Shown in pieces: positions 4,981 through 62,528 of a DNA stretch of 64,000 bases. The translations under genes were made by a program, and so were the position numbers. The DNA lies in the NCBI RefSeq assembly GCF_000328665.1, contig NC_019977.1, positions 434,001-498,000 on the forward strand, given 5' to 3'. The stretch's first letter is position 1. Each line of letters opens with the position of its first letter. The notes beneath the pieces were generated by a model. The model saw only the letters and a program-made list of their open reading frames with translations. It did no database searches and was not told the origin of the DNA. Source of the DNA: Methanomethylovorans hollandica DSM 15978 (lineage in GTDB: Archaea; Halobacteriota; Methanosarcinia; Methanosarcinales; Methanosarcinaceae).

Positions 4981-5589
4981 ATGACCTCTGATTCCCTACG
5001 ACCATATGCTACGCGGTTCATTTCACCTCTTGCACATAAGGCTGCAGATGCGGGTGTTTCTCCGGACCAGGTATCTGCGCTGTCACTTTTTTTCGCCATA
5101 CTTGCAGGGGTATTCTATTATTACTCTCTGACAAACCCTTTGTTAGTGCTTGCCGGTGCTTTTATGGTATCTCTTAACTCTATGCTTGATGCTATCGATG
5201 GTCTCATGGCTCGATACCTCAAGACCGCTGGCCCAAAGGGAGATTTCATCGATCACGTAATTGACCGCTACGCTGACGTCATAATCATTTGCAGTATCTT
5301 TTTCGCAGGCCATGTACAGTGGCAGATAGGTGTCATTGCCATAGTGGGCGTGCTTATCACCAGTTATCTCGGCACCCAGGCTCAGGCCTTGCAGCTTGGC
5401 AGGTACTACGGAGGCATAATGGGTAGGGCAGACAGGCTTTTGCTTATAATGGCAGCATCTGTGATGTACTTTGTATACCCGCACCAGATACTCATATTCA
5501 ATCTCCTGGGTTGGGTCATGGTGATAATTGCTATAGCAAGCCATATCACTGCTTTTCAGCGTATCTGGCATATATGGCAGCAACTTTGA
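4981..5589 (+). CDS. CDP-alcohol phosphatidyltransferase, probable archaetidylinositol-phosphate synthase
   Basis: Polytopic membrane protein of 202 aa. The complete CDP-alcohol phosphotransferase signature is visible: D70, D73-G74, A77-R78, G87, D91 and D95, in a cytoplasmic loop between hydrophobic segments. Archaeal members of this length that precede archease are usually archaetidylinositol-phosphate synthases, which join CDP-archaeol and inositol phosphate to make a polar ether lipid. The head group is inferred from family size and context. The ATG lies about 77 nt after the aldolase stop, without a strong ribosome binding site. Confidence 0.85.
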   Translation: MTSDSLRPYATRFISPLAHKAADAGVSPDQVSALSLFFAILAGVFYYYSLTNPLLVLAGAFMVSLNSMLDAIDGLMARYLKTAGPKGDFIDHVIDRYADVIIICSIFFAGHVQWQIGVIAIVGVLITSYLGTQAQALQLGRYYGGIMGRADRLLLIMAASVMYFVYPHQILIFNLLGWVMVIIAIASHITAFQRIWHIWQQL

Positions 5590-5638
5590 ACCTGAGATGT
5601 CTTTAAAACTTTAAATAGACTTATTCCTATTACTCAGC

Positions 5639-6079
5639 ATGCCTGTCGACCCAAAGAAATATGAATACCTGGACCACACTGCAGATGCCAAGTTCTTGGC
5701 GTACGGTAAAACCCTCGAGGAAGCCTTCGAGAATGCTGCTCTTGCAATGTTCAATGTCATGATAGACACAAATACTATATCTCACACCCAATCCCTGGAC
5801 ATCGAGCTTGCAGCTGAAGATATTGATGGTCTGCTCTTTGACTGGCTATCTGAATTTTTGTTCCTGATGGATGCGGAATATCTTGTATTCGGTGATTTCA
5901 GGGTGCACCGCATTGAACGGGAAGGTGATCACTTCCATCTCAGTGCTACTGTGTACGGAGAACAAATCGATTTATCTAGGCATAGGTTCGATACAGAGGT
6001 TAAGGCAGCTACATATAACGATATGCAGGTGCAGCTATCAGCAGATGGCTGGGTGCTGAGGGCTACAGTGGATACTTGA
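5639..6079 (+). CDS. Archease, RtcB-activating protein
   Basis: A 146-residue small acidic protein with the archease hallmarks: the N-terminal YEYLDHTADAKF segment with its metal-binding Asp, an internal EDIDGLLFDWLSEFLFL helix and a C-terminal VKAATYNDMQV motif. Archease speeds up guanylylation and turnover of the RNA ligase RtcB, whose gene follows about 110 nt downstream on the same strand. This conserved pairing supports a joint role in tRNA splicing and RNA repair. The length is normal for the family. Confidence 0.95.
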   Translation: MPVDPKKYEYLDHTADAKFLAYGKTLEEAFENAALAMFNVMIDTNTISHTQSLDIELAAEDIDGLLFDWLSEFLFLMDAEYLVFGDFRVHRIEREGDHFHLSATVYGEQIDLSRHRFDTEVKAATYNDMQVQLSADGWVLRATVDT

Positions 6080-6193
6080 AATCAAGTGTACATCTTGATT
6101 CTTTCATTGAACCAATACTGTTTTACATGTCGGGTATATACTTTATAATACGGGATGGGAGAATTCAATATAATTTCAAAGTAAGTGATGACT

Positions 6194-7654
6194 ATGTCTG
6201 AAGATAATGATATTTCAATTAATCTCAATAAGATCAATGATAATACCTGGGAGGTACCTCGCGGATATAAACCAGGGATGCGTGTTCCAGGACGCTTGTT
6301 CTTATCTCCTCCGCTTCTAAATATACTGGAACAGGGCACACTGGATCAAGTGGCCAATGTGGCTGCATTACCAGGTATACAAAAGTATTCCATGGCCATG
6401 CCAGATGCACATCTTGGGTATGGTTTCCCTATAGGCGGAGTTGCGGCATTTGACAGGGAGGAAGGTGTTATCAGTCCAGGTGGTGTTGGTTTTGACATCA
6501 ATTGTGGTGTAAGGCTCATCCGTTCTAACCTGAAAGAAAGTGATGTTAGGCCTGGGATAACGGACCTTCTTGAAAGATTGTTCCATGCTGTGCCTTCTGG
6601 TGTGGGCTCCAAGAGCCGTCTGCGGGTAAACGATGATCAACTGGATGATGTTTTCATCCACGGCTCCCGCTGGGCTGTGGAGAATGGCTATGGTGTACCT
6701 AACGATGTGGAAAGGTGTGAGAGCCAGGGTATGATGGAAGGTGCTCTGGTGAAGCAGGTCAGCACCAGGGCGCGCCAAAGAGGAAGACCCCAGTTGGGAA
6801 CTCTTGGAAGCGGAAATCATTTTTTGGAGATCCAGTACGTGGATGAGATCTATGACACAAAAGCCGCTGATGCCTTTGGCTTGCATGAGGGACAGATCAC
6901 ATTCATGATCCATTGCGGTTCAAGGGGTGCAGGGCATCAGATATGTACCGATCATCTGCGCACTCTTACGCAGGCAGCAGAAAAATACAAGATAGATCTC
7001 CCTGACAAGCAGCTTGCATGTGCACCTACGGATTCTTCCGAGGCTCAGAACTATTTTGGAGCCATGGTATGTGCAGCCAACTATGCATGGACCAACAGGC
7101 AGGTAATAATGCACTGGGCAAGGGAAGTGTTCCAGGATTTCTTCCGGCAGGATATGGATGAACTGGGCATGGACCTTGTGTACGACGTTGCACACAATGT
7201 TGCAAAACTCGAGACGCATAAAATCGATGGTAAAAAGCGGGAAGTCTATGTGCACAGGAAAGGTGCTACACGTGCTTTCCCTCCAGAGCATTCTGATGTC
7301 CCTGCTGCATATAAGAAAGTGGGCCAGCCTGTGCTTATCCCTGGCAGTATGGGCACTGCTTCATACGTACTGCACGGCACTCATGATGCAATGGATATAA
7401 GTTTTGGTAGTGCATGTCACGGGGCTGGCAGGGTCATGAGCAGAGCTCATGCCAAGCATGAGTTCAGAGGGGAACAGATCCAGAAAGATCTCAGTAAAAT
7501 GGGAATCTCTGTTCGTGCCACTCAACCTGCACTGATAGCTGAAGAGGCTCCGGGGGTCTACAAGTCCAGTAGTGATGTGGTGGATGTTGTGCATAATCTG
7601 GGCATAGCAAGGAAAGTTGCACGTCTGATGCCTATAGGAGTTGTAAAAGGGTGA
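6194..7654 (+). CDS. rtcB: RtcB 3'-phosphate/5'-hydroxyl tRNA-splicing ligase
   Basis: Full-length intein-free RtcB of about 486 aa. Metal ligands are visible in order: Cys in GFDINCGVRL, His in GSGNHFLEIQ, His in MIHCGSRGAGHQ, His in YDVAHNVAK, and the guanylylation His in the ACHGAGRVMSR segment. The enzyme joins 2',3'-cyclic-phosphate or 3'-phosphate ends to 5'-OH ends using GTP and Mn2+, as in tRNA exon ligation. GTGATG upstream serves as ribosome binding site for ATG 6194; a GTG (6185) and an ATG (6188) in the same frame are alternatives. Archease lies directly upstream. Confidence 0.95.
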   Translation: MSEDNDISINLNKINDNTWEVPRGYKPGMRVPGRLFLSPPLLNILEQGTLDQVANVAALPGIQKYSMAMPDAHLGYGFPIGGVAAFDREEGVISPGGVGFDINCGVRLIRSNLKESDVRPGITDLLERLFHAVPSGVGSKSRLRVNDDQLDDVFIHGSRWAVENGYGVPNDVERCESQGMMEGALVKQVSTRARQRGRPQLGTLGSGNHFLEIQYVDEIYDTKAADAFGLHEGQITFMIHCGSRGAGHQICTDHLRTLTQAAEKYKIDLPDKQLACAPTDSSEAQNYFGAMVCAANYAWTNRQVIMHWAREVFQDFFRQDMDELGMDLVYDVAHNVAKLETHKIDGKKREVYVHRKGATRAFPPEHSDVPAAYKKVGQPVLIPGSMGTASYVLHGTHDAMDISFGSACHGAGRVMSRAHAKHEFRGEQIQKDLSKMGISVRATQPALIAEEAPGVYKSSSDVVDVVHNLGIARKVARLMPIGVVKG

Positions 7655-59582: not shown

Positions 59583-59760
59583 TCTGTACAATACATTTAT
59601 GACCTCCATCTTTGCAATATGTAAGTTTAATTGAGCAGATTCACTAATATTCTATTTTTTATAAGTCTTTAATTTGCACAATTGAAATGTCATCATTATG
59701 ATGCTTATTTAATTCTAGTGTCCAGCATCTCGTATTCGCTTCCGGCACACTACAAAAACC
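59583..59760. other. Intergenic region after thiI
   Basis: AT-rich spacer between the thiI stop and the candidate RNA promoter. No gene or clear terminator is visible. Confidence 0.35.
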
Positions 59761-59770
59761 TTATATATTT
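59754..59770 (+). promoter_or_regulatory. Strong archaeal BRE/TATA promoter
   Basis: AAAAACCTTATATATTT is a near-ideal BRE plus TATA box. It lies far from the next coding start (60066) but about 25 nt before a structured segment at 59785-59890, so it probably drives a small RNA. Confidence 0.55.
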
Positions 59771-59784
59771 TGATAACATATGCA

Positions 59785-59895
59785 CAGATTAGGCGCACAG
59801 AGTAACAACAACATGAATTTCTAGCACAAATTTCATCCTTTATCTCTCGTCCATTCCCTCAAATTTCATGTGCGCCTGCTTCTAACTTTTTCTCA
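59785..59895 (+). ncRNA. Candidate small structured RNA
   Basis: A segment of about 100 nt closed by a 9-bp perfect inverted repeat, AGGCGCACA (59791-59799) with TGTGCGCCT (59869-59877), followed by a T-rich stretch (CTTTTTCTC, about 59886-59894). Inside, CATGAATTT (59812-59820) can pair with either of two identical copies of AAATTTCAT (59828-59836, 59861-59869). A strong TATA box lies at the right distance upstream and there is no reading frame of note. I do not recognise the RNA family. Confidence 0.4.
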
Positions 59896-60065
59896 CTGCA
59901 ACTGATGTTTTTATTTCTCATTCATACTTCCTGCTCGAATGGACATACTTATCTTAAATGTGGAGATAGTCTTCCAATAAGTTTTATATAAATCCATGTA
60001 TAATTCATACTAGTTATATTCATCCCAATTAATTTAAACTCAATAACATCTGAAGTTGAAACTTT
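59896..60065 (+). promoter_or_regulatory. Promoter and leader of the long ArlCDE-like gene
   Basis: A TATA-like TTTTATATA lies at 59982-59990 and another AT-rich candidate near 60012-60020. No ribosome binding site precedes ATG 60066, so translation may depend on a short or leaderless transcript. Confidence 0.4.
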
Positions 60066-62528
60066 ATGAGCACATTTCCATGGGAACAGACAGGCAAGAA
60101 GAAGGAAGAGGAACCGGACGGTGCTACAAATGCTGCACCGGGCACACCACCATTTGCTGCCGGTGCTCCGATCTCAGACCTTTTCCAGAAAGCTTTTTCG
60201 GAACCGGTCATACAGGAGACAAGTATTGCCTTTCCTGAAAAAAGCTTACCCTCCAAACTTTCTGTAGTATCTTATCCTTTGTTTTCCATGGAAATACCGG
60301 ATCTATCTTCTCTTGGGTCTAAACAGGAAGTTCCAGGGGGTCCAACGCCTCCTTTCATATTTAACGGAAAAGAGGGATCTTTACCTATCTTTTTATCTAA
60401 GAAGCCTCCAATGGCATTTCCGGGTGCTCCCGCAACTGAGGTAAAGGATACTCCAAAGGTACAGACAACCAGTAAAAGACAACTACCCGTCTTTGAAATG
60501 GTATTGCCCGAAGATGGCACCAACGTTGGTGATCCGCTACCTGCTCCTGTGAAACCTGGGATCAATGCCACAGATATTTCAATATTTCCTGTTCCAGGTC
60601 CAAATTTAAGTGGTCCAGGTCCTTTTAGTTTTACGGCATCCCCACAGCCTGCTGAAAATGATACATTTTCTCCGTCCTCGCCATTTTGCCTATTTGTGCC
60701 ACCACTTCAACCTGCTGCTATTGCAGGTTCAGATGATCCTTCTTCAGCAGATCCATTCTCTGCTTCCCATGATCCTTTCGCTCAGGGTATTCCCCCATCC
60801 GCTGCTGACCCTTTTGCAGGCCAGATCAATCTTTCTAGTGCCGTCCCCGGTCCATCGGGTCTAGCTCCTTTTCCGTTTTCCGGGCCGAACCCTTTGTTTT
60901 CAGGTGGCTCTACCCCCAGTTATATGAACACAGTACCAGGGAAAAAGCCAGGTATAGGCGGAAAGATGGTTGATGTACCCGGAAAACTGGCAACGAGTAT
61001 AAGTGAGCTGGCAAATTCCATTGTTGTCAATGTTCGGAACCTTACTAAAGGTAAAAGTCTGCTGGATAAAATGGAGAAAATAAAGGAAGGCAATATTTTC
61101 GAAGAGGACCATTCTCTACAATCGCCTGATGCTTCTGTATATGAAAGAGGGAGGCAGGCAAGAGGCAATGCATTGTCCATTGTTTCAAATAACTCTCCTT
61201 TTGGTCCGGCACCTTCAGGCTTATCGTCTTTTGCACCTTCCGCAGGTGGTACTGGCTTGTCAATGCCTGCTCCACAAATCCTCCCAGATAGCTTGCCAGA
61301 TGATCATGCTATCAGTATCTCTCCGGGTGATTTTGTAAAAGTAACTCCGGTGGAGAATCCATTGTTCGATTTTCCGGAAGCGCTTAAGATCGATAATAAT
61401 TCCCAGTCACTACTTCCTGCTTACAATGATACCGCAGAGGGTACTGCAGGTATGAAGCAGCGATCGTCAGATACCCTTCATCAGCCTGAGAAAGTGGCTG
61501 AAGGGGTACCTTTCCCTGCAGCTGTGAAGAGTTCGAACGGATGCGCTCCTGCCGGGTCCAAGGAACTTGATGATATCAGAGAAAAGCTGGAATCTTCTGC
61601 AGGCAATGTCTCTCAGGTATGTGGCATGTACGAGGAGCTTTCAGGGAATATGGCTGTTCTTGGCGATTCTGTGAGGTCTCTGCAAGGTTCTTCTGATGAC
61701 ATGATGACAGCAACGTGTATGAAATTCGATAGTCTGGACGAGCGTATAGTCCGGCTGGAATCGCACCTGTTGGGTATGGAACAACAAGTGGCTCATGTTC
61801 TGTCTGAGAATCGGGATATCATGTCAAGCCTTTCCAGTATAGAGCAGCATATCTCCGAGCTTGTGGGATCTTACACGGCTCTTGTCTCTAAAATACAGGA
61901 AAATGCGCAGGAAAATGATGATCGCTTCTCTGCTTTGTCGGCTAAAGCAGGTGCAATGGAAAACCTTGTCCCGAGATTTGCGAGCATGGAGAGGTCAGGT
62001 ACGGAAGTATCTGCAACCGTACAGGATCTTCAAGGTAATGTTGCAAAGCTCGGTACTGATATTTCAAACGTTTCAGCATCACAGCAGGAGATCAGGGATG
62101 AGATGATGGAGCTATCCAAATACGCGGAGGGAGAGCTCAAAAAAATAGGTGCCAAGGGGTATAAAGTAGCAGATCAGAGCATACAGCTTGCACACATCAT
62201 GAAAAATTCCTCGAGTATCAAATTGTGTATGGAATGGCTTGAGTTTCTTATGGAACTAGTAGGGCGTAATAATCTGCCTGATATTCTCTCTTACTATGAG
62301 GAGTTGGGCTGGATCACAGAGGAAGCACGTATGGAACTCATGAGATATGCTGAAGGCATCGATTTCTATATGGAGAAACCGGACTGGAAGCTTAATCCCG
62401 ACGACCATGTAAAATCCGTCTGGTTCATTGAGAACCTTGCAGGGATCAAAGTGGACAAGAATAAACTGTCCGTTATTGACCGGGATATTGAAAAAGTCCG
62501 CAAGGGCTCAGAGATATATAATATTTGA
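60066..62528 (+). CDS. Very long ArlCDE (FlaD/E-domain) protein with proline-rich N-terminus
   Basis: An 820-residue protein. Residues ~1-330 and ~370-520 are low-complexity, rich in Pro, Ser, Phe and Gly (DPFS, SADPF and PSGLAPFPFSG-like blocks); ~520-700 is coiled coil; the last ~120 residues are a FlaD/E domain clearly related to the ArlCDE of the arl operon, sharing WLEFLMELVGRNNLPD, LGWI, EGIDFYMEKPDWKL and a final DRDIEKVRKGSEIY. It is about twice the operon copy's length and stands apart from other arl genes, with its own promoter. It may form or decorate the cytosolic motor ring; the disordered N-terminus could bind other proteins. Confidence 0.85.
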   Translation: MSTFPWEQTGKKKEEEPDGATNAAPGTPPFAAGAPISDLFQKAFSEPVIQETSIAFPEKSLPSKLSVVSYPLFSMEIPDLSSLGSKQEVPGGPTPPFIFNGKEGSLPIFLSKKPPMAFPGAPATEVKDTPKVQTTSKRQLPVFEMVLPEDGTNVGDPLPAPVKPGINATDISIFPVPGPNLSGPGPFSFTASPQPAENDTFSPSSPFCLFVPPLQPAAIAGSDDPSSADPFSASHDPFAQGIPPSAADPFAGQINLSSAVPGPSGLAPFPFSGPNPLFSGGSTPSYMNTVPGKKPGIGGKMVDVPGKLATSISELANSIVVNVRNLTKGKSLLDKMEKIKEGNIFEEDHSLQSPDASVYERGRQARGNALSIVSNNSPFGPAPSGLSSFAPSAGGTGLSMPAPQILPDSLPDDHAISISPGDFVKVTPVENPLFDFPEALKIDNNSQSLLPAYNDTAEGTAGMKQRSSDTLHQPEKVAEGVPFPAAVKSSNGCAPAGSKELDDIREKLESSAGNVSQVCGMYEELSGNMAVLGDSVRSLQGSSDDMMTATCMKFDSLDERIVRLESHLLGMEQQVAHVLSENRDIMSSLSSIEQHISELVGSYTALVSKIQENAQENDDRFSALSAKAGAMENLVPRFASMERSGTEVSATVQDLQGNVAKLGTDISNVSASQQEIRDEMMELSKYAEGELKKIGAKGYKVADQSIQLAHIMKNSSSIKLCMEWLEFLMELVGRNNLPDILSYYEELGWITEEARMELMRYAEGIDFYMEKPDWKLNPDDHVKSVWFIENLAGIKVDKNKLSVIDRDIEKVRKGSEIYNI

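Follow-up and report, generated by a model that had tools for sequence, protein, structure and literature searches.

A gene for an RNA of about 100 bases lies between thiI and an archaellum-type gene in Methanomethylovorans hollandica, at approximately 59751-59890 of the window (the whole 64,000-nucleotide stretch of DNA analyzed here). Its long unpaired loop is near letter-for-letter identical in 30 species, which, as far as comparative sequence can tell, identifies the element as a genuine small regulatory RNA that has not yet been named. The conserved features are a closing stem, a small hairpin on the 5' side, and a 25-nt unpaired, pyrimidine-rich core; the near-identity of this core in both genera points to strong constraint.

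Distribution, conservation, and gene context

An initial DNA search covering 60 relatives detected the thiI-linked RNA in all five congeners and in three Methanolobus (g5) genomes. A covariance model was then run against 186 genomes of the order, and it matched 6/6 Methanomethylovorans and 24/27 Methanolobus genomes with bit scores of 97-137, always in one copy per genome. The exact 19-mer of the core, ATCTCTCGTCCATTCCCTC, occurs once in each of these 30 carriers (the host genome comprises 2.71 Mb in two contigs), while the remaining 208 of 238 genomes of the class contain no match with up to one mismatch. A search of viral contigs for the RNA was likewise negative. Two of the three Methanolobus genomes without the RNA reflect assembly problems: in one (G139) thiI itself was also not found, and in the other (G137) the site is covered by a run of N. 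The third (G143) is a true absence, with thiI followed directly by the arlD/E gene. Weak covariance-model matches outside the carriers (Methanosarcina G160 and genera g2, g3, and g11) were rejected; the G160 site, L086, resembled the RNA, but its relatives are without the closing stem, so we attribute the resemblance to chance, and another weak match, L126, aligned poorly.

Among the loci compared, the order thrS, acyP (acylphosphatase), thiI, RNA, arlD/E-like gene is common to Methanomethylovorans and Methanolobus. One Methanolobus locus (L089) carries two near-identical transposase-like genes (438 aa; 296-1609 and 5329-6642) on either side of the arlD/E gene and the RNA; the second lies between thiI and the RNA, which retains its own promoter there.

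Conservation of the RNA is far above chance. In an alignment of the 30 carrier species, mean column identity was 0.99 for the core, 1.00 for the AGCAC loop, and 0.99-1.00 for the stem, against 0.62 in the upstream and 0.45 in the downstream flank, values that serve as a measure of the divergence that was possible. The BRE/TATA box averaged 0.81, compared with 0.68 for the 10 nt that follow it. Coordinates of all features are collected in Table 1.

Table 1. Features of the thiI-linked RNA, its surroundings, and other elements downstream of thiI (window coordinates unless a locus is named)
Feature	Position	Strand	Remarks
BRE and TATA box, AAAAACC TTATATAT	59753-59768	+	read directly; TATA retained in 30/30 species
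ATGCACA heptamer	59780-59786	+	nearly invariant, column identity averaging 0.99 across the 30 species; preceding bases variable
P1 closing stem, 5' arm AGGCGCACA	59791-59799	+	likely RNA 5' end
P2, 5' arm CATGAATTT	59812-59820	+	pairs with 59828-59836; 5.8 bp in ensemble
AGCAC loop of P2	59823-59827	+	5/5 columns invariant in 30 species
P2, 3' arm, first AAATTTCAT	59828-59836	+	ensemble pairing and 30-species alignment
Unpaired pyrimidine-rich core CCTTTATCTCTCGTCCATTCCCTCA	59837-59861	+	22/25 columns invariant in 30 species; presumed interaction surface
Second AAATTTCAT, proposed switch arm	59861-59869	+	unconserved; AATTATTCCC in its place in Methanolobus
P1 closing stem, 3' arm TGTGCGCCT	59869-59877	+	9 perfect pairs with 59791-59799
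U-rich 3' end	59878-59895	+	presumed archaeal U-tract terminator; CTCTTTTT right behind stem in most Methanolobus
Separate TATA promoter of arlD/E-like gene	59979-59991	+	reads AAGTTTTATATAA in the window; Methanolobus has a conserved (C)TTATATAAATA
Methanosarcina-type thiI-linked element	L024:6334-6428		also L022, L025, L026, L030, L160-L172, L232
g4 element	L015:1972-2064		also L017, L019, L211-L214

Promoter, fold, and the proposed switch

Direct reading bore out the BRE/TATA box, the closing stem, the two copies of AAATTTCAT, and the T-rich end that a preliminary description had reported. Methanolobus promoters are reported to lie about 19-22 nt upstream of transcription start sites (PMC5378194); on that spacing the RNA is predicted to start at approximately 59788-59791, which is the base of the stem. 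The ATGCACA heptamer just 5' of this predicted start may be an element close to the promoter, or it may already belong to the 5' end of the RNA. Downstream of the stem the sequence is unconserved apart from the U-tract, in which the RNA should end, judging from its sequence, past position 59878.

The next gene (60066-62528; Pfam Arch_fla_DE) encodes an 820-aa product with a C-terminal archaellum ArlD/E domain and a long, proline-rich N-terminal half; none of the neighboring genes that were read, thiI on the upstream side and two genes for membrane proteins on the downstream side, is an archaellum gene. The RNA always lies about 165-235 nt upstream of this gene in the loci read from both genera, as a cis-acting leader (an attenuator or riboswitch) would. 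However, the conserved TATA box of the arlD/E-like gene sits between the RNA and the start codon, the Methanolobus genome that has dropped the RNA retains this promoter (L156/L023), and no alternative folds were predicted. We therefore consider it improbable that the RNA is a leader, and the arlD/E gene having its own TATA box, present also where the RNA is missing, makes the RNA most likely its own unit. Conservation, synteny, and the separate promoter of the following gene lend strong support to the earlier proposal that the element is a small RNA with a promoter of its own; the conserved BRE/TATA signature and the synteny also agree with the own promoter and the intergenic position, apart from neighboring genes, that are expected of an intergenic trans-acting sRNA.

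The predicted fold of the element is better than that of all shuffled sequences (z = -3.2; 0/200 shuffles as good). P1 pairs at about 8/8 bp in the ensemble in nearly all carriers and is weaker in two species, each with a single mismatch in the stem. The preliminary description had also looked to covariation among the relatives' intergenic regions; the RNA is conserved in sequence there, but 6/9 P1 pairs are invariant and none of the nine has changed on both sides, so covariation is uninformative for P1, neither for nor against it. P2, a hairpin of its 5' arm and the first AAATTTCAT, forms in most carriers, with only about 1.8-2 bp in the GTGAA group. Two loci lend modest support to P2 from their sequence changes: L082 alters both arms (GATGCTTTT / AAAAATCATC) with the fold retained, and in L075 a U-U mismatch becomes a G-U pair.

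It had further been proposed that both copies of AAATTTCAT pair with the same CATGAATTT, and that pairing of the second copy competes with the closing stem, giving an RNA that switches between two helices. The sequence CATGAATTT and both copies do occur in the window, and CATGAATTT, although an imperfect complement of AAATTTCAT (the perfect one being ATGAAATTT), pairs with the first copy through 5 bp, a bulge, and 3 bp. The second copy behaves otherwise: its expected pairing is 0.03 bp while the stem stays nearly fully formed, and it peaks at 0.51 bp among the 30 species. It is also variable: two congeners have AAATATCAT or AAAATTCAT instead, and Methanolobus lacks the copy, on which grounds we regard the duplication as a local coincidence. 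A switching RNA or riboswitch is defined by two mutually exclusive conserved helices, and here the second is neither conserved nor populated. Because its second arm is neither conserved nor used in the ensemble, the two-helix switch is unsupported, and we give it next to no credence.

Noncoding character and possible mode of action

The preliminary statement that no protein frame explains the element agrees with the alignment, in which the reading frame is lost at indels of the 5' arm and the core shows almost no silent variation. Parts of the core do have an open frame, and some species contain short open stretches, such as that from ATGAATTTTAGC in the short Methanolobus forms, as might be expected of an unrecognized short peptide on either strand. 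Against a peptide, single-base indels in the 5' arm shift the frame between species, no consistent start is present, and the few core substitutions (L078, L080, and L084) are mostly not silent. Such a peptide, or an element acting at the level of DNA, is thus very improbable, and noncoding is the best reading of the element.

Few archaeal sRNAs have a known function. We considered known classes, taking a score above a family's gathering threshold as Rfam membership. No family of Rfam 15 matches the RNA, for which the best local matches (E 3.4 and 9.4) fall far short of the cut-off; the sole Rfam match in the window is a tRNA located elsewhere. Both the C box (RTGATGA) and the D box (CTGA) of a C/D box sRNA are absent from 59791-59890.

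We favor, as somewhat better than an even proposition, a free-standing sRNA of about 90-110 nt, encoded between genes, with its own BRE/TATA promoter and a U-tract end, whose core is presumed to be antisense to mRNAs; most likely, the element is an independent, trans-acting antisense-type sRNA. It would be transcribed from its own promoter, with transcription ending at the U-tract; the GC-rich closing stem would join both ends of the RNA and, together with P2 on the 5' side, display the open core CCUUUAUCUCUCGUCCAUUCCCUCA; and the core would pair with purine-rich stretches of several mRNAs, as reported for the loops of sRNA154 and for sRNA41 (discussed later). Several targets are suggested by the freezing of the entire core, as opposed to one short seed.

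Searches for such targets gave no support to any particular one. Sites complementary to the core, sought in eight genomes with G-U wobble and up to three mismatches, were only slightly more frequent than in a reversed-pattern control and included no conserved noncoding targets; the recurrent ones resemble conserved coding sequence, for example GACGGCATGGATGAGATAT. Across 240 start regions (about 300 kb, 304 kb sampled, of the host genome), the core bound no better than dinucleotide-shuffled cores, and the best single site, L255 (-24.6 kcal/mol; a protein of unknown function), is unsupported. Pairing of the core with the rRNA operon, with thiI, and with the start region of arlD/E was either no better than that of shuffles or unconserved.

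The main rival to an antisense sRNA is a protein-binding RNA, a scaffold or decoy whose core would serve as the site for an RNA-binding protein or ribonucleoprotein without pairing to mRNA. The absence of a target signal in the searches run is consistent with this possibility, as is the freezing of the whole 25-nt core and the AGCAC loop, which goes beyond what one short seed would need. On the other hand, no partner genes are linked to the RNA, and the core is unstructured and pyrimidine-rich, as is typical of antisense surfaces. Protein binding is, in our estimate, the less probable explanation, at a level that still merits serious attention. Its frozen core makes the thiI-linked RNA a well-defined object for experiments in methylotrophic methanogens that can be cultured.

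Other elements downstream of thiI and comparison with known sRNAs

Methanosarcina (g8), genus g12, and one g2 genome carry a different element downstream of thiI, with a TATA box, a closing stem of 8 bp (GGGCGTTA/TAACGCCC), a hairpin (TGGAG/CTCCA), an anti-Shine-Dalgarno CCTCC, and GTTCAATCCACAG repeated in tandem two to four times. In one locus, L167, the stem is kept despite three G-U-compatible changes (GGGTGTTA/TAGCGTCC). A sequence resembling ATTACCCTCAAATTTTCAATACCCCTCATTTTT also recurs in Methanosarcina (L190-L198), at times in tandem (L198). Genus g4, another member of the Methanosarcinaceae, has a third element (stem TGACACAAC/GTTGTGTCA) about 400-590 nt beyond thiI, from which it is parted by a few hundred bases that probably hold a short gene on the opposite strand; it is kept in four genomes and in matching public contigs, and its loop contains ACCCTCAAACCC and ACCCATCCTTA. 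Each of the two elements is conserved in several genomes, and no Rfam family matches either of them. Both are like the thiI-linked RNA in lying on the same side of thiI and on the same strand, with a TATA box about 25-30 nt before a GC-containing stem and a long loop; unlike these shared traits, the loop and stem sequences are unrelated to it. Downstream of thiI in g3, g6, g7, g9, g11, and the others tested, no convincing element was found.

The background of this TATA/stem/loop architecture is about 0.028 per kb of strand in the 304 kb sampled, or about 0.02 per 700 nt. Two independent lineages of about ten, at approximately 0.02 expected each (a post hoc estimate, giving roughly p = 0.02), are therefore suggestive of a shared origin. 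The pattern suggests, though short of proof, a single old sRNA locus beyond thiI with lineage-specific loops. More speculatively, and in our judgment less likely than not, the locus may be an ancient Methanosarcinaceae cassette in which the promoter and the closed-stem, open-loop scaffold were kept while the entire loop was replaced from lineage to lineage and afterwards stayed fixed inside a lineage. If so, loop exchange would let an archaeal sRNA cassette alter its target set, with at least three forms seen; and if the Methanosarcina RNAs are relatives, a genetically tractable host would be available for functional work, and the way an sRNA shifts its targets over evolution could be traced.

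Two intergenic sRNAs of the same archaeal family offer a comparison by description, not by sequence. In Methanosarcina mazei, the loops of sRNA154 pair with mRNAs, ribosome-binding sites included, and sRNA41 masks ribosome-binding sites (PMC5867862); in contrast, the sequences we searched gave no target for the thiI-linked RNA, which is itself absent from Methanosarcina by sequence. Another point of reference is Methanolobus psychrophilus, which belongs to the genus of 24 of the 30 carriers. Differential RNA-seq of this species yielded 195 unnamed sRNAs, nine of which make up a cold-induced and highly conserved group with a "cold box" upstream of the promoter (PMC5378194). Whereas those cold-box sRNAs are a set of nine, the thiI-linked RNA is present in exactly one copy per genome, and it may be among the 195 sRNAs recorded in that species.
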